Below the pieces are notes generated by a model. It worked only from the letters and a program-made list of their open reading frames with translations. It ran no database searches and was not told the origin of the DNA. From Niastella populi (lineage in GTDB: Bacteria > Bacteroidota > Bacteroidia > Chitinophagales > Chitinophagaceae): a DNA stretch of 64,000 nucleotides. The stretch spans positions 1-64,000 of the forward strand of contig NZ_LWBP01000206.1 in assembly GCF_002078015.1 (NCBI RefSeq), in the 5' to 3' direction. Shown one piece after another: positions 5,678-41,268 of the stretch; the first letter of the stretch is position 1, and each line of letters begins with the position of its first letter. The position numbers and the translations under genes were made by a program.

Positions 5678-6064
5678 TGAATCCCGTATTCCATCGTTAG
5701 GAAAAACAAACCTACGTCAATTAGTGATATGCGCAAAGACTGATTTAGGGTAATTGACGCAAAGCTATTATTAACTCGTTCACTGCCTGATTGTTCGCCA
5801 ACCCGGTTGTTAAAAAACCATTAGAACCGGGTACCAGTTACTGGTTACCGGTTTCCGGATGCCGGATAACCGGTAACAGGCATCATTAAGACAGCCGGAT
5901 ATTATATATAATAATATAGCCTCAAATGCTAAACCGGTGTTTGCTTGGGGCATAAACGATTAACAATCAATATTTCTTACTAATTTGCCCGAAAATCGGG
6001 TACTTTTCCCCTGAAAATTGAAAAAAAAGTAGCGTTAATGCCTTCACAATCTGGTGCAAACCCT
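5678..6064. other. Divergent gap between the GH3 gene and rplU
   Basis: No gene is seen. At 5845-5876 there is an imperfect palindrome (TTACCGGTTTCCGG against CCGGATAACCGGTAA, one-base offset) embedded in a tract of degenerate ACCGGTTAC-like units (about 5826-5880). A related fragment is at about 36317-36343. Confidence 0.5.
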
Positions 6065-7095: not shown

Positions 7096-7172
7096 TGCTT
7101 AACGCTTCACGCTGAAAGCTTCACGCGGAACGCGGAACACTAAAGGCAGAACGCAACACGCAGAACGCAATA
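7096..7172. repeat. Degenerate GAACGC/CACGC repeat tract
   Basis: Imperfect units such as GCTTAACGC, TTCACGC, GGAACGCGG and GCAGAACGC follow one another. The CGCAGAACGC core also occurs at 2849-2858 and, inverted, at 1335-1346 and 2944-2955. The rest of the gap up to pyc (7173-7781) shows no gene, RNA or clear promoter. Confidence 0.55.
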
Positions 7173-12937: not shown

Positions 12938-13091
12938 GTTTGTGGTTTGTGGTTTATGGTTTGTTGTTGCTCCGCGCCTTGAGTCCGCAGTTTTGTTTCG
13001 AAGATCCCGATCTTTAAGATTTAGATGTTTCGAACACAATCAGGTGGCTCGAATAAAAGCAACCATAAACTACAAACCATAAACCACAAAC
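12938..13091. repeat. Two 33-bp inverted repeat arms between convergent genes
   Basis: The left arm (12938-12970) and right arm (13059-13091) are both 33 bases. The right arm read on the minus strand matches the left at 28 of 33 positions. Each is built from degenerate TGGTTTG/TGGTTTA units. An 88-nt spacer separates them and contains CGAAGAT/TTCGAA words but no gene. The left arm starts 4 nt after the polX stop and the right arm ends 32 nt from the kinase stop, so a stem formed here would sit in both 3' ends. Confidence 0.75.
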
Positions 13092-19980: not shown

Positions 19981-22548
19981 TTATTTTACCGGCCTTATCA
20001 CACTGGCAATATAGGCTACCAGCACACAAATAAGTACCGCCGCCGCAGGATACAGGAAGAAATTAATAACACCGGCCGCCTGAATAAAATACAAACAGAT
20101 GGCGCTTACAATAAATCCGATAATAATTCCGGCGCTGTGAATGCGCGGGAAGAAAATACCGGCCACAAACATCCCGGCCAGGCAACCACCGAATAAGCCG
20201 ATGATCTTTATGTACTGGTCCCAGATGGAAGCATTGCGCAGGTATACCATATAAATAGCGATCAAACAACCCAGCGCACCCAGAACAACGGTGGTCCAGC
20301 GGGCAAATACAAATCGTTGTTTATCGGTGCTTGCGGGCTTTACGCTTTGATAAAAATCGGTAGTTATAACCGTAGCAATAGAGTTCATACTGCTGCTGAT
20401 GGTCGACATGGTGGCGGCAAACAAACCGGCGATAACGAGGCCGGCCAAACCCGAAGGCAACTGATTGCTTATGTACCAGGGAAAAACATCGTCGGTGCGG
20501 CCATGCGGGTTCAATGCAGCCGGGTGATGTTTATAATAAACCCATAACGCAGTACCTACGCTAAAGAAAATAAGCGACGCCGGTATTACAAGTATGGCAT
20601 TGGTGTAAATCGATTTCTTTGCTTCTTTTTCTGTAGAGGTGGTAAGATAACGCTGCACTACTACCTGGTCAGATGAATAGGTTACCAGTTGCGTTAAAAA
20701 TCCGCCAACGAACACTACCCACAATACCGGTTCGGTGATGGTCCAATCGGTAATAGCCAGCCGGAATTTATCGTGCTGCATGGCTTCATTGAACAATTGT
20801 CCGAAACCGCCATTCATTGAATTGGCTATAAAGAAAAGTGTTGCCAGGGCGCCGCCCAACAATACACCCACCTGCATTACTTCGGTCCATACCACTGCTT
20901 CTATACCGCCCGATACGCTATAGGCGGTAGTGATAATACTGGTGCCTACGATACAAAGAAAGATATCGATACCGGTGACCGCACTCAACACAAGTGCCGG
21001 TAAGTAAATTACGATGCCCAACCTGCTCACCTGGAACAATACAAACGTTAAACTGCCCAGCCATTTTACCTGGCGGTTGAAGCGGATGTTCAGGTATTCA
21101 TATACGCTGGTGAGTTTTAGTTTACGGAAATAGGGCAAATAAAAATAAACGACTATCGGCGCCACCACCACTATCATTACATTGTTCAGGAGATAAACCC
21201 AATCGGTGGCATAGGCTTTTGCGGGAATGGCAATAAACGTCAATGCGCTTAGTTTGGAACCGAAGATACTGAGGCCCGCCGCCCACCAGGGAATTTTACC
21301 ACCGCCGAGGAAAAAGCCGCTTGTAGTGCGTTGCATGTTCCGCGATACTATAACGCTGATGGCTATCACCAGTATAAAGTAAATGCCTACAATGGTCCAG
21401 TCGAACAACCGAAAACCGCCGGGTGGTTGTATGGGTGTTGCCATCAATACGCGGTTGGTGCGGGTACCGGGGCGCACCTCACCACCCGGAAGCACCAGGT
21501 TACCATTCCAGATCACAGTGGTTGTGGTAACCGGCGCCCAGGTGCTGGCATTGGGGTTGCTCTCCGCATCGGCCAGTTTTTCTGTGTTGACATCTCCTAT
21601 TGTGCTCCATGAATTGGTAATGGAATTGTACATCCACACCGCGCTTGAAAAGCCCGGATGTTTTTGTTGCAGCGCAGCATTCTGATCGAAATAATTCCCG
21701 TTGTCGCCGCCAAACAACAGCAAATGGGTTTGCCCGGTTGTAAACGCGGGCGAGGGCGCGGCGGTTACCGGTTGCGGCAGATCGGCAATTCTTTGCCAGC
21801 CGGCCGATTTACCGGGAACATATTTGTATGCATCTTTTAAAAAGGTTCGATGCAGGATGCTATCGCCTGGTTGTTTTTCAATTGCAGCGCCGCTGAATAA
21901 ATAAAAAGCGCCCTCCTGGGTGCCGGCAACCGCCAGCATTCTGGCTGCTCCGGGCCAGGCGCCGGGAGATGCCCATGAACGTTGTGCTGCAGGCAATGCC
22001 AGATCGAGCACCCAGAAATTCTTTTCGGCCTGCGTAGCGGTTGGCTCTTTTGTTCCACCGGCTATATACAGTTTCGAACCGATCATTATCCCGCACGCAT
22101 TGGCAATGGGTGTAGGTAATGAAGGCAGGTTTTCCGTTTCTATAACGCCGTTCTTATACCGCAGAATCAGCACATCGCTGTAATGACGGCTTGCGTCACT
22201 GCCGCCGGCAATGATCACACCATCCTGCCAGGTGCAGGAAACACCATAAGCCAGCGGATGGGGTAAACGGCCTGCTTCTTTCCATTGACCGTTTGCCTGT
22301 TCAAGAACAAAGATTTTATCGTACCAGGTTTTGTTACCGCCGTTCCAGGGTGTGCCGCCCTTTCCAAAATTTGAACCGCCGGCAACCAGCAGGGCGCCGT
22401 TCGATACACCTGCAAATGAACCGGCGTAACCAACTTCATCGGGTATGGCAGGCAACTGCGCCCACTGCAGGTAGGGCTTGGTTGAGTCGTTACCAAAACC
22501 GGTAATACCAAGAAGGAGAAGAAATATATAGAGAATTCGTTTTTTCAT
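19981..22548 (-). CDS. Kelch mutarotase fused to a sodium:solute symporter (sialic acid uptake)
   Basis: 855 residues from the ATG at 22548. A longer frame opening at a GTG (22629) would run through a repeat tract and spoil the signal peptide MKKRILYIFLLLLGITG. Residues about 25-372 are a kelch propeller of the cyclically permuted mutarotase family (NanM-like; repeated GALLVAGGSN, VIIAGGSD, LYIAGGT, LLLFGGDNG). Residues about 381-855 are a sodium:solute symporter with 13 or so helices (VSRNMQRTTSGFFLGGGKIPW is the usual start of that family). In NanM systems the propeller speeds anomer exchange of N-acetylneuraminate. Here it would sit outside the membrane, joined to its importer. It is the last gene of the sialic acid locus, 156 nt after nanA. 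Confidence 0.9.
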   Translation of the reverse strand: MKKRILYIFLLLLGITGFGNDSTKPYLQWAQLPAIPDEVGYAGSFAGVSNGALLVAGGSNFGKGGTPWNGGNKTWYDKIFVLEQANGQWKEAGRLPHPLAYGVSCTWQDGVIIAGGSDASRHYSDVLILRYKNGVIETENLPSLPTPIANACGIMIGSKLYIAGGTKEPTATQAEKNFWVLDLALPAAQRSWASPGAWPGAARMLAVAGTQEGAFYLFSGAAIEKQPGDSILHRTFLKDAYKYVPGKSAGWQRIADLPQPVTAAPSPAFTTGQTHLLLFGGDNGNYFDQNAALQQKHPGFSSAVWMYNSITNSWSTIGDVNTEKLADAESNPNASTWAPVTTTTVIWNGNLVLPGGEVRPGTRTNRVLMATPIQPPGGFRLFDWTIVGIYFILVIAISVIVSRNMQRTTSGFFLGGGKIPWWAAGLSIFGSKLSALTFIAIPAKAYATDWVYLLNNVMIVVVAPIVVYFYLPYFRKLKLTSVYEYLNIRFNRQVKWLGSLTFVLFQVSRLGIVIYLPALVLSAVTGIDIFLCIVGTSIITTAYSVSGGIEAVVWTEVMQVGVLLGGALATLFFIANSMNGGFGQLFNEAMQHDKFRLAITDWTITEPVLWVVFVGGFLTQLVTYSSDQVVVQRYLTTSTEKEAKKSIYTNAILVIPASLIFFSVGTALWVYYKHHPAALNPHGRTDDVFPWYISNQLPSGLAGLVIAGLFAATMSTISSSMNSIATVITTDFYQSVKPASTDKQRFVFARWTTVVLGALGCLIAIYMVYLRNASIWDQYIKIIGLFGGCLAGMFVAGIFFPRIHSAGIIIGFIVSAICLYFIQAAGVINFFLYPAAAVLICVLVAYIASVIRPVK

Positions 22549-22704: not shown

Positions 22705-23643
22705 TTAAAATACAGTCGCTGCCTTTGGCTTACAGATCCAGTCAAAGAAACCAATACTTTTCAGATCTGCTTCCAGCAGTTTATATTCATGCTCTTTGAA
22801 CGGGTTCAGTGGATAGCGTACATTGCCGCAATCGAAACCGATCAGTTTCATCATCGCTTTTTGCGCACGCAATCCGCCGTACTTTACGATAACACGCACC
22901 ATTTCCACTGAAATATATTGCAATCGCTGCGCCTCTTTCAGGTTGCCTTTTTTGAATTCTTCCATCAGCGTATTGTACAAAGGCGCTACAAAATTATACG
23001 TGCTGCCAATAAATCCATTGGCGCCGGTGGCCAGTGCGCTCAGCAACATTTCATCGGTACCGTACAGGATATCGTATTTATTATTGCTGAAGTTAACGCA
23101 AGCCTGGTAGTCGTGGATCAGCGGGGCGGTATATTTAATACCGGCAAAAGAGGGGATGGCCTCGCCTGCTTTTTCAAGCAGCTTCACCATATCGAGACTG
23201 ATACCTGTCAATACCGGGATATTATAATAATAAAGCGGCAATGATGGCGCCCCTTTGGCAATCTCCTGCAAACACGCCACCAGCAGATCGATGGAATCAA
23301 CTTTAAAATAAGTAGAGGGTGTTGCCGAGATGCAATCGGCGCCGATCTGTTGCGCATGTTCTGCCAGGTGGCGGGCTTCCGTAATGCTGTTATGCCCTAC
23401 ATGCACAAATACCAGCAGTCGTTTATCCGCAGCTTTTACAAATGCTTCGGCCAGTTGTTTTCTCTCTTCTGTGGTCAGGGATGGCCCTTCACCGGTGCTT
23501 CCGCATACAAACATGCCCTTTACCTTATTATCGATCAAAAGGTTCACTACATCGGGTACTTTGCTGAAATTGATGCTTCCATCAGGGTACATGGGTGTAA
23601 AAGGAGCCGATAACAGTCCGCTAATGTGACTTGGTGTGTTCAT
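22705..23643 (-). CDS. nanA: N-acetylneuraminate lyase
   Basis: 312 residues of the DapA/NanA aldolase family. It splits N-acetylneuraminate to N-acetylmannosamine and pyruvate through a Schiff base. Visible site residues are CGSTGEGPSLTTEER (carboxylate binding), YYYNIPVLTG (catalytic Tyr) and GIKYT (Schiff-base Lys). YGTDEMLL matches the GxDE segment that distinguishes sialic acid lyases from dihydrodipicolinate synthases. The fold is a TIM barrel and the protein is cytosolic. It lies 13 nt downstream of the sialidase, in one operon. Confidence 0.92.
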   Translation of the reverse strand: MNTPSHISGLLSAPFTPMYPDGSINFSKVPDVVNLLIDNKVKGMFVCGSTGEGPSLTTEERKQLAEAFVKAADKRLLVFVHVGHNSITEARHLAEHAQQIGADCISATPSTYFKVDSIDLLVACLQEIAKGAPSLPLYYYNIPVLTGISLDMVKLLEKAGEAIPSFAGIKYTAPLIHDYQACVNFSNNKYDILYGTDEMLLSALATGANGFIGSTYNFVAPLYNTLMEEFKKGNLKEAQRLQYISVEMVRVIVKYGGLRAQKAMMKLIGFDCGNVRYPLNPFKEHEYKLLEADLKSIGFFDWICKPKAATVF

Positions 23644-32741: not shown

Positions 32742-33245
32742 ATGAAAAGGGTGACTATATTACTGGCAGAAGATAATTTGGTATTGGGCCTCTTTGTAAA
32801 ACGCGTATTACAACAGGCAGGTTACCGGGTATGGTACTGTATGAATACGGCTGAAGCATGGCAATATTACGCTGATAAAAATCCCGACCTGGTATTGCTT
32901 GACAACAATCAATCTGCGACACGTACAAATTTCATACTGGCAAGCAGGATCAGACAGGTGAATAAATTAGTTCCCATTCTCTTCCTTTCAGGTAAAACGT
33001 ACGAAGAGGAGATGTATGCCAACATCTGGCCCAAACATACCGTTGAACCGGAAAATACCAATGTAGTGAGCGAAAAGAAGTTACTGGAGCACCTGAACAG
33101 TATATTATCGGTGGCAGCTCCACCTGCAGTTATTGCGCCTGTATTTGATAAAAACCGAATGAAATTGTGCAGTCCTGAAGACATGCTCATACTTACCTCT
33201 TTCTTTGAAGACTCCGTTCACCTGAAAGAATATGTTCCTAATTAA
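32742..33245 (+). CDS. Stand-alone response-regulator receiver protein
   Basis: 167 residues. A CheY-like receiver spans about 3-120: acidic pocket ILLAEDN, phosphoacceptor Asp in DLVLLDNNQ (about residue 51), and conserved Lys in FLSGKTYEEE. There is no output domain; the last 45 residues are Pro/Ala-rich and end DSVHLKEYVPN. It could relay phosphate or act by protein contact. No kinase is next to it; the large kinase at 13.1-17.0 kb is the only one in the window and a link between them is speculation. Confidence 0.87.
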   Translation: MKRVTILLAEDNLVLGLFVKRVLQQAGYRVWYCMNTAEAWQYYADKNPDLVLLDNNQSATRTNFILASRIRQVNKLVPILFLSGKTYEEEMYANIWPKHTVEPENTNVVSEKKLLEHLNSILSVAAPPAVIAPVFDKNRMKLCSPEDMLILTSFFEDSVHLKEYVPN

Positions 33246-33281
33246 GAGGGAACACAGGTCTCCGGTTAAATCCAACATAAA

Positions 33282-33338
33282 AAACCAAATTCCAAAACTA
33301 AACCTCGATGATGAGATTTTGATTCTGGAATTTGGTTT
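33282..33338. terminator. Bidirectional hairpin between convergent genes
   Basis: AAACCAAATTCCA and TGGAATTTGGTTT form a perfect 13-bp stem around a 31-nt loop. It lies between the receiver gene ending at 33245 and the SRPBCC gene ending at 33383 and can serve both. Confidence 0.7.
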
Positions 33339-33382
33339 CCTTTGAATTCGATAATAAACCGAATTCTTCCATCGCACCCGTC

Positions 33383-34060
33383 CTATCTTGGAATTAAGAT
33401 TGTTTGATGTGTTTCAACGAAATCCTTGAATCCGCTGATCTCTTCTTCGAGCATCCTTTTGAATACCGGTGTAAATAAGCGGGCAACCTGTTCTCCGGCC
33501 TTTCCTAACGGCGCATGATACGTGAGCACTACATCGACCGTAGTTCCCTGTCCGCCCAATGAATCGCGAAAACCTATTTTACCGGCATTATCGATCGATG
33601 AACCGGGAAGGCTTTGCCAGGCGATCATTTCGCCATAACGCTCTTTAACGATCTCTGCATGCCATTGCAACGTACCAACCTTACCGGGAATTTCCATTAC
33701 CCAGTTAGAGAACAGTTCATCCTGTTCTTCTACCTTTTGCAGGTGTTTCATGAACAAAGGCAGGTTCGATAAATTGCGCCACATGGCATATACCTCTTCA
33801 CGAGGTTTATTTACGATCATCGACACCCTGATATTGAGTGTACGGCCTGCTGCCACTTTTTCTATTGAATGATATACTTCGCTAAAGGTGCGTTTACCGG
33901 CGATACCCTTATAGGCGAGAAAACAACCTACAGCGGCCTTTAAAAACCGGTTGGAAGAATTTTTGTTGAATGCACTGCCGATCAGCATAACTCCTCCCGC
34001 TACGGAAGCCAGCCGCTGACAGGTGGCTGCGCTCATTAATTTGTCCCTATTGGTGTGCAT
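33383..34060 (-). CDS. SRPBCC (START-like) family protein with N-terminal membrane segment
   Basis: 225 residues. The first 50 form a short hydrophobic DUF2892-like region (LASVAGGVMLIGSAFN, FLKAAVGCFLAYKGI), likely two membrane helices. Residues about 70-215 form an SRPBCC domain of the polyketide-cyclase/coenzyme-Q-binding kind (VSMIVNKPREEVYAMWRNLSNLPLFMKHLQKVE, then WHAEIVKERYGEMIAWQSLPGS). Such proteins bind hydrophobic ligands; the ligand here is unknown. The start is ATG. It is monocistronic. Confidence 0.85.
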   Translation of the reverse strand: MHTNRDKLMSAATCQRLASVAGGVMLIGSAFNKNSSNRFLKAAVGCFLAYKGIAGKRTFSEVYHSIEKVAAGRTLNIRVSMIVNKPREEVYAMWRNLSNLPLFMKHLQKVEEQDELFSNWVMEIPGKVGTLQWHAEIVKERYGEMIAWQSLPGSSIDNAGKIGFRDSLGGQGTTVDVVLTYHAPLGKAGEQVARLFTPVFKRMLEEEISGFKDFVETHQTILIPR

Positions 34061-34199
34061 AAGGAATAATTTTTAAGTGGATAGTTAGTATAGTATTGCA
34101 TTAAGTATCAAAATACTATACCACCCACGTTGGGGGGACAACCGTTACTATTATTACCTATAGGGTGAAATTGTTGCTTTTTTTCTACAAACGGGGAGT

Positions 34200-34307
34200 T
34201 GTTCAGTTATTCAGTTGTTCAGTTCTCAGTTCATAGTTCTCAGTTCACAGTTCTTAGTTCACAGTTCACAGTTCTCAGTTTTTAGTTTTTAGTTTTTAGT
34301 TTTTTTA
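34200..34307. repeat. Tandem AGTTC/CAGTT degenerate repeat behind moaCB
   Basis: About 108 bases of imperfect 7-10-bp units (TTCAGTTG, TTCTCAGTTCA, TTCACAGTTC, then TTTTAGT) lie 43 nt after the moaCB stop. The complementary sense (GAACTGTGAACTG) occurs at 36374-36424, so the two tracts are inverted around moaCB, moaE and moaD. Confidence 0.7.
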
Positions 34308-34349
34308 GGCGGCCTCTCGTCTTTATGCCTATTGGCTTTCGCCTGTTGC

Positions 34350-35264
34350 CTATTGGTCATGCCGCATTCCTTCAGCCACTCTGAAAATATGAAGCAGGTA
34401 AGGGAACAGCGCATCCATGCTTTCTTCGGTGCCCCGGGTTGAACCTGGCAGTGTAAGTATCAGCGTGTTACCGATAAAACCGGCTATGCCGCGCGATAAC
34501 ATGGCATAGGGTGTACGCTGCTGGCCGTATTGCCGCGCCGCTTCCATAATACCGGGAATGGTACGATCGAGTAAGGGCTCAATAGATTCAGGCGTTACAT
34601 CGCGGGGAGAAAGACCGGTACCACCGGTAAACAAAACGAGATTATATTTTTCGTTCACCAGTTGTTTAACTGTTGATTGTATGGCATCCTTTTCATCGGG
34701 AATGATCTTGTACAAACCCGTGTTGAGGTTATATTGTTTTAATTTTTGCAGAATAACTTTCCCGGCCCTGTCCTCTTTATCACCGGCCGAAATGCTGTCA
34801 CTGCAAACGACCACCGCGCAAAGCAGGTTCCTGGAAACAGCATCTTTGAAGTCGGTTTTGCCGCCTTTTTTATTGACGAGTTTTATGGTGCTGATCTCGA
34901 TCTCCTTATCGATCGGCTTCAGCATATCGTACATCGTTAACGCCGTCACCGATGCGCCATGCATGGCTTCCACTTCTACCCCCGTCTTATAAATAGTATG
35001 TACTTCTACCGTTACAATCACATTCAATCCTTCAATCGTATGCGTAATGCCTGCATACTCTACCGGCAGGGGATGACAATCGGGAATAACATCACTTGTT
35101 TTTTTTATGGCAAGTAATCCTGCGGCGCGACTGAACTCAAACACATCGCCCTTGGGCACTTTGCGTTGCAGGATGGCATCTATCGTTTCCTGTTTTGATA
35201 CTTTTACAATTGCAGTGGCGGTGGCTTGTCTTAAGCTGGATACTTTATTAGTAATATTTATCAT
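34350..35264 (-). CDS. moaCB: Fused molybdenum cofactor proteins MoaC-MoaB
   Basis: 304 residues. Residues 1 to about 147 are MoaC (cyclic pyranopterin monophosphate synthase), with CHPLPVEY, KTGVEVEAMHGASVTALTMYDM and VNKKGGKTDF. Residues about 148-304 are a MoaB/Mog-type domain that adenylates molybdopterin, with VVCSDSISAGDKEDRAG, FTGGTGLSPRDVTPE and LPGSTRGTEESMDALFP. Both parts carry the usual site residues, so both activities are probable. Such fusions occur in Bacteroidota. It is the last gene of the moa operon, 149 nt after moaE. The start is ATG. Confidence 0.95.
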   Translation of the reverse strand: MINITNKVSSLRQATATAIVKVSKQETIDAILQRKVPKGDVFEFSRAAGLLAIKKTSDVIPDCHPLPVEYAGITHTIEGLNVIVTVEVHTIYKTGVEVEAMHGASVTALTMYDMLKPIDKEIEISTIKLVNKKGGKTDFKDAVSRNLLCAVVVCSDSISAGDKEDRAGKVILQKLKQYNLNTGLYKIIPDEKDAIQSTVKQLVNEKYNLVLFTGGTGLSPRDVTPESIEPLLDRTIPGIMEAARQYGQQRTPYAMLSRGIAGFIGNTLILTLPGSTRGTEESMDALFPYLLHIFRVAEGMRHDQ

Positions 35265-35284
35265 TGAATTGGATCAAAGTGAGT

Positions 35285-35345
35285 CAAAAAAAGCTATAAG
35301 CCGTAAGCTGCAAGCTATAAGCAAATACAGCGCGGCAACCGGGAA
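35285..35345. repeat. Degenerate AAGCTATAAGC repeat between moaCB and moaE
   Basis: Imperfect TAAGCTGCAAGC/TATAAGC units (35285-35325) end in AAGCAAATACAG. After a short spacer CTGTATTCCC gives a partial inner stem followed by T residues. AAGCAAATACA is shared with the hairpin behind the GntR gene. Confidence 0.55.
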
Positions 35346-35413
35346 CTGTATTCCCTTTTTCATTCTGCATTTAACTTTTACATTCGTAATTGAACATTCG
35401 ATATTCAATAATT

Positions 35414-35860
35414 CTATTTATTCTCTTTCCATTGATAACTTTCATCTTCAAAAATCTCTTTCCCCCAAATCGGTAATTCCGCTTTTAATCTTTCCACCAC
35501 TTCATTGCAGGCATCGATGGCGGCTTTGCGGTGTGCCGATGATGTGAACACAAACAAACAAATTTCGCCGGCTGCAATTGTACCCAGACTGTGATGCACG
35601 TGCATGCACACCAGCGGATATTTTGCAAAGATCTCTTCCCTTATCAGGTGCATTTTTTCCAGCGCCATTTCTTCATAAGCAGTATACGTTATCGCTTTTA
35701 CCGTATTGCCTTCGATCACATCGGCACGCACCTGTCCCAGGAAAATGCTATGCCCCCCAATATTTGTTTTGGTATTGTGCTTTTGAATGCTGTCAGCAAT
35801 AAAGGAAGCCGCAATGGGTCCCTGGGTGAATATATTCTTTGGTTTGCGTTCTGTGATCAT
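35414..35860 (-). CDS. moaE: Molybdopterin synthase catalytic subunit MoaE
   Basis: 148 residues. It shows GGHSIFLGQVRAD, then YEEMALEKMHLIREE, VHVHHSLGTIAAGEICLFV (with HH and the GEI segment) and PIWGKEIFEDESYQW, whose Lys residues contact the pterin. It transfers two sulfurs from MoaD thiocarboxylate to cyclic pyranopterin monophosphate. Length is normal. The start is ATG. moaD lies upstream after a 168-nt repeat-bearing gap. Confidence 0.96.
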   Translation of the reverse strand: MITERKPKNIFTQGPIAASFIADSIQKHNTKTNIGGHSIFLGQVRADVIEGNTVKAITYTAYEEMALEKMHLIREEIFAKYPLVCMHVHHSLGTIAAGEICLFVFTSSAHRKAAIDACNEVVERLKAELPIWGKEIFEDESYQWKENK

Positions 35861-35867
35861 GATGTGC

Positions 35868-36022
35868 TATTTGGTGAATGGTCAATGGTCAATGCCTCGC
35901 GAATTTTTAAATTTATTTAAGCCCTTGCACCGCCCGAAATTCGAGCCGGTTGCCAAAGAAGGCCGCGCTTAAGTTTGCCGTTTCACAGCCTGCCCCGATA
36001 TAGTCGGGGTTTGCCGTTTCAC
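35868..36022. repeat. Repeat-bearing gap between moaE and moaD
   Basis: GGTGAATGGTCAATGGTCAATG (tandem TCAATGG units, about 35873-35894) runs into CCTCGCGAATTT. Further on, GTTTGCCGTTTCAC occurs twice (35973-35986 and 36009-36022), separated by a CCCCGA/TCGGGG hairpin (35993-36009). No gene is seen. Confidence 0.6.
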
Positions 36023-36028
36023 GATAAC

Positions 36029-36262
36029 CTACCCCCCCGCAAATGGCGGCAATAAAGCTACCGTATTGTTTCCCGATAACGCGGTATGCCCGGTTACAAT
36101 CTGTTTGTCAACGGCAATGATATAAGGTTTATTCACCAGCGCCGGATAACGTTGATTCAACTGATCTATCAATTCGCTGGTATCCGCCGCATTCTCTATC
36201 ATTACGGGATTGTTCCCCATAACATCTGTAAGTTGTCCAAACACAATAACCTGTACCGGCAT
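36029..36262 (-). CDS. moaD: Molybdopterin synthase sulfur carrier MoaD
   Basis: 77 residues with the ubiquitin-like beta-grasp pattern and the essential C-terminal Gly-Gly (LLPPFAGG). It starts MPVQVIVFGQLTDVMG. The terminal glycine is adenylated by a MoeB-type enzyme and converted to a thiocarboxylate that gives sulfur to MoaE. No moeB is present in the window. The start is ATG. Confidence 0.95.
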   Translation of the reverse strand: MPVQVIVFGQLTDVMGNNPVMIENAADTSELIDQLNQRYPALVNKPYIIAVDKQIVTGHTALSGNNTVALLPPFAGG

Positions 36263-36373
36263 TTTATTTAGTTTATTTCCGTATCACAAATTTACTTAAT
36301 TCCTTTATAGCAGCGCCGGTTACCGGTTTCCGGTTACCAGGCAGCTTTTTCAAATGTCAAAACCTCACCAACC

Positions 36374-36424
36374 GAGAACTACGAACTATGAATTATGAAC
36401 TGTGAACTGTGAACTGTGAACTAG
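36374..36424. repeat. GAACTGTGAACT tandem repeat touching the moeA stop codon
   Basis: Units GAACTACGAACTATGAATTATGAACTG and GTGAACT repeat with a period of about 7-10 and run into the moeA stop (TAG at 36423-36421). A degenerate ACCGGTTACC tract lies at 36317-36343. The 158-nt gap holds no gene. Confidence 0.65.
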
Positions 36425-37602
36425 GCAATCAAATGAACTTCCACCTCCTCCCCCACTCCATACTCCATTTTTTCCTCGGGCAAAACCAGTAAACAATTGG
36501 CCATGGCAAAGGACCTCAACCGGTACGATTCCTGCGAATCGAGCGGCACAACCGTTTTCCCGTCATAATATCCTTTTAAAAAGAAAGTGAGCGCGGCTGT
36601 TTTTGAGTATGCCCTGCCCAGCGGCGCCAGTACTGTTTTCAGTACCGGTTTCAATTGCATCAGTTGCTCAAGCGCCGGAATAACATACTCATAAAAACAG
36701 GTAAGCACCGACGATGGATTACCCGGCAACCCGAATACCCATTTTTTCCCTTTTCGGCCCACAAACAGCGGTTTTCCCGGCCGTTGCTTTAGTTTATGGA
36801 ACAAGGTAGTAACCCCGCATTCAGCAGCTGCCTGCGGCACAAAATCATAATTACCTACACTTACCCCGCCCGTCAATAACACCACGTCGCTATTGTCGAG
36901 CGCATATTGTAAAGTATCTTTTACCGTTTGGGGATCGTCCTTTGCTTCGAATACCGGCACTTCTTCTATCAGTAACGACTGCAATGCTGCCCGCAACTGG
37001 TACGAATTGCATTCGTATACCTGTCCGTAATGTAATGGCTTGCCGGGCTGTTGCAGTTCGTTGCCGGTTACAATGATACTCATAACCGGTGTGGGATAAA
37101 CCGTTACTTCCGATACACCGGTCGTTGCCAGAAAGCCTATAGCCGCTGGCGTTAGTACATCGCCTTTCAGCAGCGCCATTTCCCCGGCTTTTATTTCAGA
37201 ACCTTTGGGGCGCACATTCAGCCCGGTTTTCAACTGCTCATCGTGAATATGTAACTGCCCGTTGTTCACCTCCGTTTTTTCCTGCATAACGACCGTATCG
37301 GCGCCGGCAGGAACGGGCGCGCCGGTAAAGATGCGCATGGCCTGGTTGCCCTGCAGTGTCGACAGTCCGGGCGCACCGGCGGGCACTTCGCCCTGGATGC
37401 TTAATGTTTTATGCAACTCATAACCGGCAAACGACAAAGCATAACCGTCCATGGCCGATTGATCGAATGCAGGAATATCCGTTTGGGCTGTTACATCGGC
37501 TGCCAGCACGCGGCCTGCCGCCTGTTGTAATGGAATGGTTACCGGCGGCAATGCAGTGGCATTGTCGCGGATCATATTTTTTGCTTCTGTTACAGAAATC
37601 AT
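36421..37602 (-). CDS. moeA: Molybdopterin molybdenumtransferase MoeA
   Basis: 393 residues in the four-domain MoeA layout: FDQSAMDGYAL near residue 45, IFTGAPVPAGADTVVMQE near 90, VTGNELQQPG near 175, LLTGGVSVGNYDFVPQA near 240 and VFGLPGNPSSVLTCF near 290. It inserts molybdate into adenylated molybdopterin. Length is typical. The start is ATG, 10 nt after moaA, so the two are coupled. Downstream comes moaD. Confidence 0.97.
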   Translation of the reverse strand: MISVTEAKNMIRDNATALPPVTIPLQQAAGRVLAADVTAQTDIPAFDQSAMDGYALSFAGYELHKTLSIQGEVPAGAPGLSTLQGNQAMRIFTGAPVPAGADTVVMQEKTEVNNGQLHIHDEQLKTGLNVRPKGSEIKAGEMALLKGDVLTPAAIGFLATTGVSEVTVYPTPVMSIIVTGNELQQPGKPLHYGQVYECNSYQLRAALQSLLIEEVPVFEAKDDPQTVKDTLQYALDNSDVVLLTGGVSVGNYDFVPQAAAECGVTTLFHKLKQRPGKPLFVGRKGKKWVFGLPGNPSSVLTCFYEYVIPALEQLMQLKPVLKTVLAPLGRAYSKTAALTFFLKGYYDGKTVVPLDSQESYRLRSFAMANCLLVLPEEKMEYGVGEEVEVHLIA

Positions 37603-37612
37603 GTCGCTGGTA

Positions 37613-38593
37613 TTAACCTCCGATGGTGATCATGCTGCGGTTCTGAATAGCACTGGCTTCCAGGTGCTCGAAATCGGTATTGAACTGTCCGCCCAGTTCT
37701 TTCTTCTTGGCATGAATACTCTGGCGGATCAAAGGAATGATGTCGCCCCCGTTTCGTATGGTAGTAAGAAGATCGGTTTCTTCCTGGGAGAAAAGACAAT
37801 TTTTCATTTTGCCGTCAGCGGTCAGTCGCATGCGATTGCAGGTACTGCAAAACGGCGCGCTCATGGTGCTGATAACGGCAAAGGTGCCGGCGTGGCCCGG
37901 TACCAGGTATTTTTTTGCGGTATCGTTCAGCTCACCTTTTAACGGCAGGAACGAATACTCCGCTTCTATGATCTGTAATATTTGCTGCCAGGTGAGCACC
38001 TTGTTGCTCGTCCACCGGTTTCCCTGAAACGGCATGAACTCGATAAAACGCACATGCACCGGCGTGTTTTTTGTCCAGGCAATAAAACTGTTGATCTCCT
38101 GGTCATTGAAATCTTTCATCACCACCACATTCACTTTGGCGCGAATGTCGTTTTCGATCAACAGGTGAATATTATCGTATACCCGTTTGAACTGGTCGCG
38201 GCGGGTGATCAGTTGAAATTTATCGGCCTGCAGCGTATCCAGACTAACATTAAGCGAGGTAATACCGGCCTGTTTTAACGTGGGCAGAAATTCATGCAGG
38301 CGGGCGCCATTGGTAGTTAGCGTTAAGGTAACCGGCAGTTTCGACAGGGCCAGAATAATATCGGCGGCATCTTTACGTACCAGCGGTTCCCCGCCGGTAA
38401 GCCTGATCTTTTTTACGCCCAGGCTCACGAACGTTTTCGCAATAGTCTCTATCTCATGCGCCTGCATCAGTTTTGAGGCGGGCGTAAACTCATACTCCTC
38501 TTCAGGCATACAATAAAAACAGCGAAAATTGCAATTGTCGGTCAGCGAGATCCGCAAATAGTCGTGCACCCTGTTAAACTGATCAATTATCAT
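37613..38593 (-). CDS. moaA: GTP 3',8-cyclase MoaA
   Basis: 326 residues. This radical-SAM enzyme begins molybdenum cofactor synthesis from GTP. The SAM cluster motif is C21-x3-C25-x2-C28 (DNCNFRCFYCMPE). The C-terminal second cluster is in FCSTCNRMRL followed by NCLFS. GGEPLVRKD is the SAM-binding GGEP segment. The protein ends in Gly-Gly as the E. coli enzyme does, which is needed for activity. The start is ATG. Confidence 0.97.
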   Translation of the reverse strand: MIIDQFNRVHDYLRISLTDNCNFRCFYCMPEEEYEFTPASKLMQAHEIETIAKTFVSLGVKKIRLTGGEPLVRKDAADIILALSKLPVTLTLTTNGARLHEFLPTLKQAGITSLNVSLDTLQADKFQLITRRDQFKRVYDNIHLLIENDIRAKVNVVVMKDFNDQEINSFIAWTKNTPVHVRFIEFMPFQGNRWTSNKVLTWQQILQIIEAEYSFLPLKGELNDTAKKYLVPGHAGTFAVISTMSAPFCSTCNRMRLTADGKMKNCLFSQEETDLLTTIRNGGDIIPLIRQSIHAKKKELGGQFNTDFEHLEASAIQNRSMITIGG

Positions 38594-38602
38594 TACCCGT
38601 AA

Positions 38603-38743
38603 AGTTAGTTATTAGTTAACAGGTTAACAAGTTAACAGGTTGACAGGGACCCTCAACTTTGAAAACCTGACAATATTCAGACTTATCTATTTTTAACGGT
38701 TGTATTTTCCTTGTCAACTCGTCAACCGGTCAACTCGTCAACT
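38603..38743. repeat. Inverted repeat arms that overlap the mocA stop codon
   Basis: The left arm (38603-38648: TTAACAGG, TTAACAAG, TTGACAGG units) and right arm (38711-38743: TCAACTCG, TCAACCGG units) are complementary in sense, with 62 nt between. The last four codons and stop of mocA (38741-38730, KLTS-stop) are inside the right arm, so the repeat supplies coding sequence. Confidence 0.7.
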
Positions 38744-39320
38744 TCCTATACTCCCCCTCCGTATCTATATCAAATTCCCCTTCTGGAAAGGGTACCGGAA
38801 CCACTTCGTCGGGGTGCTGCTGTATAATTTTTTTCGCACCCGTGTCGCCCTGCAAATCAAGCAGTTGGGGAAACAGGGATTTATCGAACAGGGCGGGAAT
38901 ACCCAGGGTACCGCCATAGGCACTGGCCACAATGCTTTTGTTGCTTTCCTGCCGCTCATTGATAAGTTCCAACAGCAAAGCGGCCGAAACGAACGGCTGA
39001 TCGCAAACCATAAAGATCACCTGGTCGGGCGATGGCGTGCGATCGAGCAGGGCCTGTAAACCGCACCGGATCGACGAAGCTATCCCCTGCTCCCAGTCGG
39101 GATTGAAAACAACATGCACCTGGGCAGGGTTCAACCCGGCTACCAGTTGATCGGCATTGGCGCCCGTTACCACTACCGGCCGCGTGGTGATGGCCATTGC
39201 CGTTTGCACCGCATGTTGCAACAGTGTTTTACCCTGCCAGGGTAACAATTGCTTTGGCCGTCCCAACCGGGAAGATGCGCCTGCGGCAAGAATTACTATA
39301 TCTGTATGAAAGATGGTCAT
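38730..39320 (-). CDS. mocA: Molybdenum cofactor cytidylyltransferase-like protein
   Basis: About 196 residues from the ATG at 39320. An upstream TTG (39371) would add 17 residues before the nucleotide-binding motif and is less likely. The N-terminal MobA/MocA fold motif VILAAGASSRLGRPKQLLPW is followed by VFNPDWEQGIASSIRCGL and FMVCDQPFVSAALL. The pattern is MocA-like (CTP, for xanthine-oxidase-type enzymes) rather than MobA, which agrees with the neighbouring xdhC and the divergent oxidoreductase. It begins 43 nt after the xdhC stop. Confidence 0.88.
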   Translation of the reverse strand: MTIFHTDIVILAAGASSRLGRPKQLLPWQGKTLLQHAVQTAMAITTRPVVVTGANADQLVAGLNPAQVHVVFNPDWEQGIASSIRCGLQALLDRTPSPDQVIFMVCDQPFVSAALLLELINERQESNKSIVASAYGGTLGIPALFDKSLFPQLLDLQGDTGAKKIIQQHPDEVVPVPFPEGEFDIDTEGEYRKLTS

Positions 39321-39363
39321 TCCTGATGATTTTAATAAGTAACCTGTTACACCTTTAAGCTTT

Positions 39364-40521
39364 TCAACCAACCTTCACTTCCTCAATCTCCTTCTCTACC
39401 CGCGGATGAATGGTATCGGCACTGTTGCGCAATGATTCGCCATTTCTGCCGGCAATAACCGCCTTTATTTCTGCCACCATCGATAGTGCGATCTCTTCGG
39501 CATTTTCGGCGCCAATATTCAATCCTACCGGTCCATATACCATTGCCAGTTGTTCAGGCGTTGGCACTATGCCTTCCGCCTTTAATTCATCGAGCATGCG
39601 CACCAGTTTCTTACGCGGGCCCAGCATACCAATATAGGTAATGCGTTGTGTTAATAACTGGCGGAATATTTTGAGGTCATAATTATAATTATGCGTCATC
39701 AGCACAAAAACGGTTTGCGCATCAACGGCAACCTGTTGCAGTACCTGGTCTGATTTTGCTACCAGCACCTGGCTGGCGGTAGGGAACCGGGCAGGCGTTG
39801 CATACGCAGGCCGTCCATCGGCTACCATTACCCGCCAACCCAGCAAATGCGCCATTTGCGCAACGGGTATGGCGTCGTTTCCCGCTCCGATGATGATGAG
39901 CGAAACAGCCGGTTGTATGAGTTCGATAAATGCCGTGAATTGTTTGCCTTCCGATACATACGTTTTTGTAGCCGACACCTGGTTTATAAAGGCGGTTTTT
40001 GCGTCGGTGGTCAATGCCTGCTGCAATGCATCATTGCTCATACGCGCGGTAACGGTGCCGCCCGGTAATTGAAGTAAGCAGGTGCCCGGCTGTACTTCGC
40101 GCCGGTCGTTCAGCGAAAAAAGCATTACCAGCACGGCATGTTGCCGCTGGCTGTTGATGGTCTTTAATAATCGTATGGGATTATCGGGTTGCGCGGGTAA
40201 TATCGGTTCTATAACAATATGTATAATGCCTTCGCACCCGAGGCCAACACCCAGTTTGGCATCATCTTCATCTGTTGTATCGTAGGTCACCAGCATGGGC
40301 TGCTGCCGCTCCATCACCAGCAATGCTTTACGCAGGGCATCGCCCTCGAGGCAACCGCCGCTGATGGCGCCGGTAAGCTGTCCGTCCTGGGTGATCAACA
40401 TGCGCGCGCCGGGCCGGCGGTAGGAAGAACCCTGTACATGTACCACGGTGGCCAGTGCGGTCTGTTTCCCCTTTTGTTGCGCCTCCTCGAAGGCCTGTAT
40501 AATGGCCTGTATTTCTTTCAT
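39364..40521 (-). CDS. xdhC: XdhC/CoxI-family molybdenum enzyme maturation factor
   Basis: About 385 residues from the ATG at 40521 (an upstream TTG at 40551 is less likely). The N-terminal XdhC/CoxI domain has ATVVHVQGSSYRRPGARMLI and ISGGCLEGDALRKA with the conserved Cys. The C-terminal Rossmann domain has LIIIGAGNDAIPVAQMAHLLGW and YIGMLGPRKK. XdhC binds molybdenum cofactor, protects it, helps add the terminal sulfur and hands it to xanthine-dehydrogenase-type enzymes. It is the first gene of the minus operon and is divergent from its probable client at 40786. Confidence 0.93.
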   Translation of the reverse strand: MKEIQAIIQAFEEAQQKGKQTALATVVHVQGSSYRRPGARMLITQDGQLTGAISGGCLEGDALRKALLVMERQQPMLVTYDTTDEDDAKLGVGLGCEGIIHIVIEPILPAQPDNPIRLLKTINSQRQHAVLVMLFSLNDRREVQPGTCLLQLPGGTVTARMSNDALQQALTTDAKTAFINQVSATKTYVSEGKQFTAFIELIQPAVSLIIIGAGNDAIPVAQMAHLLGWRVMVADGRPAYATPARFPTASQVLVAKSDQVLQQVAVDAQTVFVLMTHNYNYDLKIFRQLLTQRITYIGMLGPRKKLVRMLDELKAEGIVPTPEQLAMVYGPVGLNIGAENAEEIALSMVAEIKAVIAGRNGESLRNSADTIHPRVEKEIEEVKVG

Positions 40522-40785
40522 TTGATAATCAATAATTTTTTCATTTGCCAAACGGAACCCACCATAAAATTTTCATCATTAACAAAAGAAATTGCCCGAA
40601 TTTTTTATGGCTCATTTCAGATGTAATTCTTTTAACACATCTCCACTAAAGTTACAACAGTTGAAACACATAATTTGATGCAAATTCGACCAACGGCGTT
40701 GGGCATATTTTGGTCACTATTAGAATAATTTATCAGGAACCTCTTCCGCACTGTCGTAACTTAAAGGTTCAAATCACTCAATTTT

Positions 40786-41268
40786 ATGGCTTCGTACAAA
40801 CTCAGTATCAACGGAAGTTCTTTTTCCGTAGAAGCTGATCCCAAAATGCCACTGCTATGGGTTCTGCGCGATCTGTTGAATTTAACCGGTACCAAATATG
40901 GCTGCGGTATGTCGCAATGCGGCGCCTGCACCGTGCATTTGAACGGCAATGCCATTCGCTCCTGCACCATGCCTGTTTCGGCCGTAGGCACGCAGAAAAT
41001 AACCACCATTGAAGGGTTGAGCACCGATAATTCGCACACCGTGCAGCAGGCCTGGATCGCTGAACAGGTTCCGCAATGCGGTTATTGCCAAACCGGGCAG
41101 ATCATGTCGGCAGTGGCCCTGCTGAAACGAAATCCCAATCCTACCGACCGCGATATCGACATGGCCATGCAGGGAAATATCTGCCGCTGCGGCACCTATC
41201 CCCGCATTCGTAAAGCCATTCACAAGGCGGCAGCCATGATGAAACAACCGCCGGCTAAAGGTTTTTAG
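40786..41268 (+). CDS. 2Fe-2S subunit of a xanthine-oxidase-family enzyme (IorA-like)
   Basis: 160 residues, a complete small subunit with two iron-sulfur clusters. The plant-ferredoxin-type motif [15 protein letters not shown] is near residue 43. The second helical cluster has [13 protein letters not shown] and [12 protein letters not shown]. It passes electrons from the molybdenum site to an outside acceptor. No FAD subunit is present, as in isoquinoline 1-oxidoreductase-type two-subunit enzymes. The start is ATG. The large subunit begins 63 nt later. Confidence 0.95.

Follow-up and report, generated by a model that had tools for sequence, protein, structure and literature searches.

Why do four gaps of a single operon each carry a degenerate tandem repeat, and do such repeats belong to the operon or only lie within it? 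The question is raised by a minus-strand operon of moa and related genes in Niastella populi, within a 64,000-nt stretch (the window; contig NZ_LWBP01000206.1, positions 1 to 64,000), for which the original prediction proposed elements that are inserted at gene 3' ends, differ from gap to gap and may tune the stability of message segments. The answer favoured here, with a probability of roughly 0.6, is that short foldback elements, similar to REPINs or miniature inverted-repeat transposable elements (MITEs), populate the genome, parked behind stop codons, and that the tracts are copies of them, some whole, others partial or decayed. The repeats of the operon look like local copies of these genome-wide elements, not parts of the operon, and message tuning keeps little support.

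Several observations carry this answer. The arrays are abundant, frequently have inverted arms, stand behind stop codons and carry sense-strand stops in those arms; in orthologous gaps their presence and family change, sister species differ in repeat dialect, and dispersed copies of one family have similar cores. The window genome was compared with nine further species of its genus (G001-G009). Published systems are cited by their PubMed Central (PMC) articles.

Repeat arrays in the gaps of the operon

The operon reads mocA-moaA-moeA-moaD-moaE-moaCB, with gene identities taken from NCBIfam profiles; cut-offs were passed by moaA and the moaC/moaB fusion, whereas mocA, moeA, moaD and moaE had the expected family as best match at scores below cut-off. 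The closest named relatives of its MoaA are those of Longitalea luteola (94%) and Niastella vici (93%). The genes are:

38730..39320, minus strand: mocA (TIGR03310 best match, below cut-off)
37613..38593, minus strand: moaA (TIGR02666, over cut-off)
36421..37602, minus strand: moeA (NF007960 best match, below cut-off)
36029..36262, minus strand: moaD (TIGR01682 best match, below cut-off)
35414..35860, minus strand: moaE (molybdopterin synthase/MoaE models, below cut-off)
34350..35264, minus strand: moaC/moaB fusion, moaCB (NF002947, over cut-off)

Arrays in the gaps were located with Tandem Repeats Finder (TRF), and significance per gap was assessed on the best 7/8-nt score against 1,000 Markov shuffles. 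As originally described, the gaps mocA-moaA (136 nt), moeA-moaD (158 nt), moaD-moaE (168 nt) and moaE-moaCB (149 nt) each hold a degenerate tandem array, the top score of each being reached by 0/1000 shuffles, and the 10-nt moaA-moeA gap is free of repeats. The margin was narrow in the weakest gap, moaE-moaCB (score 11.8; best shuffle 11.6). The tracts are:

38713..38743, minus strand: left arm of a complete inverted element, GTTGACGA-type octamers in mRNA sense (TRF; pairs with 38615-38647)
38648..38712, no strand: core or loop of the mocA-moaA element (position between the arms)
38615..38647, minus strand: right arm, CCTGTTAAC-type octamers, reverse-complement family of 38713-38743 (TRF; inverted pair)
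36376..36423, minus strand: AGTTCAC heptamer array over the moeA stop codon (TRF; 0/1000 shuffles)
36316..36338, minus strand: GGTAACC heptamer array, second in the moeA-moaD gap and of another family (TRF)
35974..36022, minus strand: two GTGAAACGGCAAAC pieces behind moaD (by eye, below array threshold)
35872..35894, minus strand: CATTGACC/CATTCACC heptamer array just before moaE (TRF; GTSAATGG-pair family)
35381..35408, minus strand: weak TTGAATA/TCGAATG tract behind moaE (by eye, below array threshold)
35291..35322, minus strand: GCTTATA/GCTTGCA heptamer array before moaCB (TRF; 0/1000 shuffles, narrowly)
34197..34304, minus strand: GAACTGT/GAACTAA array and AACTGAACA octamers behind moaCB (TRF)

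The mocA-moaA gap contains a complete element: one arm covers the stop codon of mocA, a core follows, and a reverse-complement arm of the same family stands before moaA. Its left arm spans the last 14 nt of mocA including the stop, and by eye the C-terminal residues of MocA are encoded by units of the octamer array. MoaCB likewise ends, in the window and in G003, with an extra Gln from a CAATAG unit, the C-terminus being His-Asp in 7/10 genomes (by eye). Two array families were detected in the moeA-moaD gap; moaD-moaE and moaE-moaCB have one detected array each, their second, weak tract being seen by eye only. The families of these weak tracts recur elsewhere in the genome, the GTGAAACGGCAAAC family of the moaD 3' side at G000:C187 about 94267 and the TTGAATA/TCGAATG family of the moaE 3' side at G000:C187 about 224470.

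Other arrays of the window lie at 2821-2952, 5826-5874, 7097-7169 and 12938-13091, of which the last lies between convergent genes and forms a complete inverted element (GTTTGTGG ... AACCACAAAC). Separately, the stretch at 34061-34190, upstream of the next gene, is TTGTAGAAAAAAGGCCACAATT- and GGTATAGTATTTTGATACTTAATGC-like and alike in the eight sisters where this gap was seen; it is perhaps the promoter region of that gene.

Abundance and families across the genome

Outside the operon, arrays of the same kind are common. Within 400 kb of one contig, 55/60 arrays at threshold 12 had a period of 7 or 8, and one simulated sequence gave none at any period. Intergenic position was the rule (63/66 threshold-12 arrays in 464 kb of the window genome). 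A search restricted to gaps found 101 arrays at threshold 10 in the same 464 kb, compared with 7 for the control periods 10/11, while one set of shuffled gaps gave 5, 8, 0, 1 and 1 arrays at thresholds 8, 9, 10, 11 and 12; the shuffle and simulation controls comprise one replicate per threshold, genes were called with a home-made caller, and one contig makes up most of the own-genome sample. Density in one 400-kb sample was 18.5 arrays per 100 kb, from which the total for the window genome extrapolates to something on the order of 1,500 arrays.

Greedy clustering divided the 101 gap arrays into 18 families, and four arrays drawn at random all differ with probability 0.47; the difference between the gaps of the operon therefore needs no explanation. 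The claim of a separate repeat type for every gap holds insofar as the tracts differ, but the moeA-moaD gap has two families and an all-different outcome is close to an even chance. An operon-specific design was rejected on this probability and on the genome-wide occurrence of the families.

The same applies to the bracket of three genes seen between the tracts behind moeA and moaCB. The two are indeed the inverse of each other, but the pair is not special: the family of the moaCB tract (34197-34304) recurs in at least 57 more aligned pieces of the window genome among the best 40 of 328 candidates, counted as 61 rows minus the query and three rows matching the moaE-moaCB tract. Four sisters carry arrays at both of these sites, and in three of them the two families differ (by eye); in G002 one family stands behind both genes, in both orientations behind moaCB (by eye).

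At two places (G000:C156:114526-114859 and G000:C187 near 336569), arrays form part of a higher-order tandem repeat of about 42-43 nt, as if an entire arm had been amplified.

Architecture and placement behind stop codons

In its fullest form the element consists of a tandem arm, a core and a mirrored arm, with units of 7 or 8 nt and a core of 7-143 nt (median about 50; search limited to 160). Among 109 pairs of adjacent arrays within one gap, taken from six genomes at threshold 9, 47 were inverted, 17 direct, 44 unrelated and 1 ambiguous; random pairs of arrays from the same genome (n = 806) gave 34 inverted, 36 direct, 735 unrelated and 1 ambiguous.

Among gaps of at least 30 nt, arrays were borne by 37/125 convergent, 109/466 co-directional and 16/149 divergent ones. 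Elements had been predicted to sit at gene 3' ends, and this is mainly so: when one array per co-directional gap and two per convergent gap are considered (n = 183), 49% of the arrays nearest to a gene 3' end lie over the stop codon or at most 5 nt from it, while 8% of the last arrays (n = 109) lie at most 5 nt from a start codon. In 104 arms behind stop codons, counted on post-stop bases only, sense-strand stops were more numerous in 75, fewer in 17 and tied in 12; all three frames were stopped on the sense strand in 50 arms vs 12 on the antisense strand. Together with the array-coded ends of MocA and MoaCB, these sense stops fit elements able to land on a gene end that still terminates.

Inverted arms and a post-stop position could also mark functional RNA hairpins at 3' ends, kept by selection as terminators or mRNA-stability elements. 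By eye, some cores contain terminator-like stems with T-runs, and the mocA-moaA gap folds better than its shuffles (z -2.2); however, the remaining four of the five window gaps do not (z -0.45 to -0.91), and in orthologous gaps of the operon the tracts are missing or replaced, which makes this explanation unlikely. A terminator in every core was not borne out, a stem of at least 8 being found in 6/52 cores against 2.9 expected. A scan of window positions 33000-41000 with Rfam gave three matches (E 0.11-0.36), far under gathering scores and none on the arrays. With presence and family unconserved in the gaps, families spread genome-wide and one window gap in five folding clearly better than its shuffles, the proposed tuning of message segments was not supported.

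Orthologous gaps and species dialects

In the nine sisters, the gaps of the same operon hold other families or no detected array. The moaA-moeA gap is 10 nt in all nine genomes with both genes on the contig (-11 once, with another start call). The moeA-moaD gap is an array-free 27-nt leader in G003, G005 and G009; in the window, G007 and G008 a comparable leader comes after about 120-195 nt of sequence with arrays; moaD-moaE measures 27 nt in G007 and moaE-moaCB 3 nt in G009. These shortest gaps (3 nt once, 27 nt in four cases) are free of arrays, and the arrays account for some of the unusual gap length. An additional gene lies between moeA and moaD in G004, G001 and G002 (L100 3806-4609, L101 and L102, respectively), the one in G004 matching the Pfam TauE/SafE sulfite exporter family.

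Such differences also appear elsewhere in the window. No array was detected in the window between the genes at 19981-22548 and 22705-23643. In the corresponding gap G007, G004 and G009 carry GTGAGTGG arms, G003 has GTGAGTAG arms and G005 has GAAGTAG arms, always together with the matching right arm.

Whole genomes differ in the same way. Dialects were counted in the ten genus genomes as pattern matches in forward and reverse orientation, a long array counting many times. Pairs of GTSAGTAG numbered 110 in G003, 85 in G009, 1 in G002 and 0 in the remaining seven genomes, and pairs of GTSAGTGG 89 in G007, 51 in G009, 50 in G005, 24 in G003, 19 in G002, at most 7 in the rest and 0 in the window genome. 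GTSAATGG pairs were found 391 times in G004, 307 in G008, 257 in G001, 164 in the window genome, 88 in G002, 78 in G006, 48 in G007, 6 in G005, 5 in G009 and 4 in G003; GATAATKY triples 147 times in G001, 138 in G004, 120 in the window genome, 40 each in G003 and G007, 7 in G002, 4 in G008 and 0 in G005, G006 and G009. Reversed patterns gave 0 throughout for GTSAGTAG pairs and GATAATKY triples; for GTSAGTGG (up to 69 matches) and GTSAATGG (up to 128) the reversed pattern resembles the family and is hence uninformative. The GATAAT octamer pattern also had three matches in virus contigs; octamer tracts of this kind stand at L306 5395-5420, beginning at an apparent stop codon (by eye), and at L307 3692-3820.

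Copies within a genome are dispersed yet alike. One G003 element used as query returned at least 111 aligned pieces among the best 40 of 69 candidates, and by eye 30 loci of this element (23 distinct places) mostly follow a common plan around a core that approximates GGCTCGCGAATTATTCAGAC..CTGAACAATCGGGAACCC, their arms showing no fixed outer end.

A regulator or nucleoid protein that binds at a spacing of 7-8 nt would account for the constant and variable positions within the tandem units, and S1, cold-shock and Csr-type RNA binding have been discussed for TAACTGA repeats (PMC4679880); about 18 unit families in one genome sample and the change of dialect fit no single specificity, however, and this explanation is very improbable.

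Beyond the genus the distribution is patchy. Named loci of about 10 kb around moaA contained 15 arrays in Longitalea, 5 in Niastella and 3 in Cnuella, 5 in 23 Pedobacter loci (252 kb), and 0 in seven Chitinophaga and three Sediminibacterium loci. The 52 genomes of the family sampled outside this genus ranged from 0 to 50 arrays per 100 kb.

Origin of the arrays

If the tracts are copies of foldback elements, they would have spread as units by copying, their arms growing and shrinking through slippage. They may persist behind stop codons where insertion does little harm and an arm supplies stops in several frames, with a nearly neutral effect on the moa operon, and would be inherited vertically for a time before drift, decay and replacement. 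More speculatively, copying could occur in trans, through an HUH enzyme (Y1 or RAYT-like) acting on the single-stranded hairpin.

A number of observations weigh against such elements. Most adjacent pairs are not inverted (17 direct and 44 unrelated of 109), and 68/154 array-bearing gaps hold a single array, which counts against them since slippage alone would also produce lone arrays. Local co-evolution of the two arms was tested and gave no clear signal, arms of the same element being barely closer than arms from other copies of the family (14 up and 10 down of 25, p 0.056). Transposition events, target duplications and fixed end sequences were all absent from what was observed, and the filled and empty orthologous gaps inspected by eye showed no recognisable target-site duplication. 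Density in G003 was about 7 per 100 kb (400 kb) vs 36 in its 80-kb moa region, at slightly different thresholds. Lastly, long gaps without an array at threshold 9 exist: mocA-moaA at 85-147 nt in G002, G005, G008 and G009 (4/9), moaD-moaE at 90 nt in G008 and 175 nt in G002 (2/10), and moaCB to the next gene at 134-242 nt in G005, G006 and G009 (3/9). Decayed units are visible by eye in part of them. Comparison of the operon across sister species had been suggested as a check on message tuning; the shortest gaps are array-free, but gaps about as long as the array-bearing ones also occur without a detected array, which is half of what was named as speaking against it.

Microsatellite-like replication slippage, in which units of 7 or 8 nt arise locally behind genes and decay, with inverted arms formed by template switching at hairpins, is possible though a good deal less probable than foldback elements. 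It would suit the strong dominance of periods 7 and 8, which recalls the long simple repeats of other bacteria (PMC4679880, citing Mrazek, 2007), the frequency of lone arrays, the gradual morphing of units within one array (G004 58878, by eye) and the continuation of the mocA arm out of coding sequence. Local origin predicts neither the same families at dozens of unrelated places, with similar cores in G003, nor family counts running from 0 to more than 100 between sister species.

Candidate HUH enzymes

Foldback elements copied in trans would need an enzyme, and two candidates can be named, their link to the arrays being speculative: a Y1 protein linked to aro genes and resembling TnpA subclass 1.2, and a protein similar to REP-associated tyrosine transposases (RAYTs; REP, repetitive extragenic palindromic). 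An IS200-like Y1 gave one strong match in each of the 10/10 genus genomes (homologues L198-L207; window-genome copy L203, G000:C145:137781-138206), between a gene for 3-deoxy-D-arabino-heptulosonate 7-phosphate (DAHP) synthase/chorismate mutase and one for 3-dehydroquinate synthase (Pfam in the window genome, by eye in the others). An armed element stands directly upstream of it in 9/10 genomes, the exception being G009; this is suggestive only, because about one in four co-directional gaps is filled anyway. Among aro-linked Y1 homologues of other genera, an array was present there in 2/11 (one in G086, an inverted pair in G095).

The second candidate, a 200-aa protein (L209, G000:C253:62089-62688), scored 73 of 80 bits against the NCBIfam REP-associated tyrosine transposase model, just below cut-off, and occurs in 8/10 genus genomes (seven by Pfam, G004 by protein search). 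In the seven loci that were read, no array lay within 260 nt of it; a weaker homologue (32-33%) adjoins the gene in the window genome and G004.

HUH subclass 1.2 is characterised by Y---Q--HH, low copy number and occurrence mostly in Cyanobacteria and Bacteroidetes (PMC6006769). The signature is present in 19/30 Y1 homologues, including that of the window genome; these are 2/13 aro-linked ones (the two from this genus, whereas the remaining 11, from other genera, have variants) and 17/17 that are not aro-linked, so that it does not single out array-rich genomes.

Across the family, the RAYT-like gene co-occurred moderately with arrays and Y1 only weakly, in a sample of 52 of the 97 genomes searched, mostly with one 20-kb stretch each and with phylogeny ignored in all tests. 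The 27 Y1-positive genomes had 52 arrays in 633 kb (17 with arrays) and the 25 Y1-negative ones 15 arrays in 518 kb (9 with arrays), with a Mann-Whitney p of 0.016 and Fisher p values of 0.095, 0.165 and 0.132 at three cut-offs. For the RAYT-like gene at E<=1e-10, arrays were found in 22/34 vs 4/18 genomes (Fisher p 0.008; the two remaining cut-offs gave 0.098 and 0.089). The array-rich G018, G055, G028 and G019 have no strong aro-type Y1, and G009 has elements, none of them beside its Y1.

That a domesticated HUH enzyme, one or other of these candidates, acts on the arrays as its substrate, copying single-stranded foldback DNA and itself building or lengthening the 7/8-nt arms, and that every species hence has a quickly replaced dialect of its own made up of elements with stop codons, is a doubtful proposal. 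If true, a substrate would be at hand for orphan HUH enzymes in Bacteroidota and perhaps also in Cyanobacteria, for which there are reports both of subclass 1.2 (PMC6006769) and of heptamer repeats (PMC4679880, PMC4692102).

Comparison with known repeat systems

Searches of openly licensed PMC papers gave no description of these elements in Chitinophagaceae, nor anything joining Niastella, tandem repeat and intergenic. The genus offers a little-studied class of bacterial repeats: multi-family, often mirrored tandem elements behind stop codons. Quick whole-genome turnover of dialects among sisters makes it a tractable system for the origin, spread and concert of repeats, and the arrays are candidate substrates for HUH enzymes. 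They also caution against inferring operon function from such tracts.

Several known classes share individual features. Terminal inverted repeats, as in MITEs and insertion sequence derivatives, are present here, as are units of 5-11 nt repeated beyond chance, as in the long simple sequence repeats of Mrazek. Foldback (FB) elements of Drosophila have terminal inverted repeats with internal tandem repetition; they are eukaryotic and far longer. The BrickBuilt MITE of Porphyromonas gingivalis likewise belongs to Bacteroidota and is small, intergenic and tandemly repeated with inverted ends, but has a 23-nt unit and 19 copies lying 49-591 nt from genes (PMC4596501). Like REP/REPIN systems with their RAYTs, the present elements form populations of many small, palindromic, extragenic copies in a genus with low-copy HUH enzymes (PMC3733652, PMC6006769, PMC3116915); here, however, the arms are tandem 7/8-mers and, in the seven loci read, the RAYT-like gene is not flanked by elements. 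No REP-type foot (GTAG/CGTC tetranucleotide) was identified, though no systematic search was made.

Among heptamer repeats, TAACTGA occurs in Beggiatoaceae, Cyanobacteria and five Bacteroidetes (MacGregor, 2015; PMC4679880). These repeats are likewise intergenic and phylogenetically patchy, and Bacteroidetes relatives without them have shorter gaps; they differ in having one unit, a position mostly just upstream of starts in the main genome, and 169 direct sets against one indirect (PMC4679880).

The closest described system is the heptamer repeat of Xanthomonas (GGGAATC) and Nostoc (GGGGA(C/T)T) reported by Rehm et al. (2015; PMC4692102). X. campestris has 186 arrays with 70 cases of close inverted pairs, and the repeats occur less often than expected between divergent genes (PMC4692102). 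Degenerate tandem heptamers, close inverted pairs, a coding-strand position near stop codons and rarity between divergent genes are all found here as well. For Xanthomonas and Nostoc, Rehm et al. treat one G-rich, quadruplex-forming family per group, whereas here some 18 families of 7/8 nt, on reading mostly not G-rich, occur in one genome sample and turn over between species. GTSAGTAG, GTSAGTGG, GTSAATGG and GATAATKY have no GGG run, while a few arrays do. Heptamer period, inverted pairs and stop-codon preference are common to both systems; the number of families, on reading mostly not G-rich, sets the present one apart.

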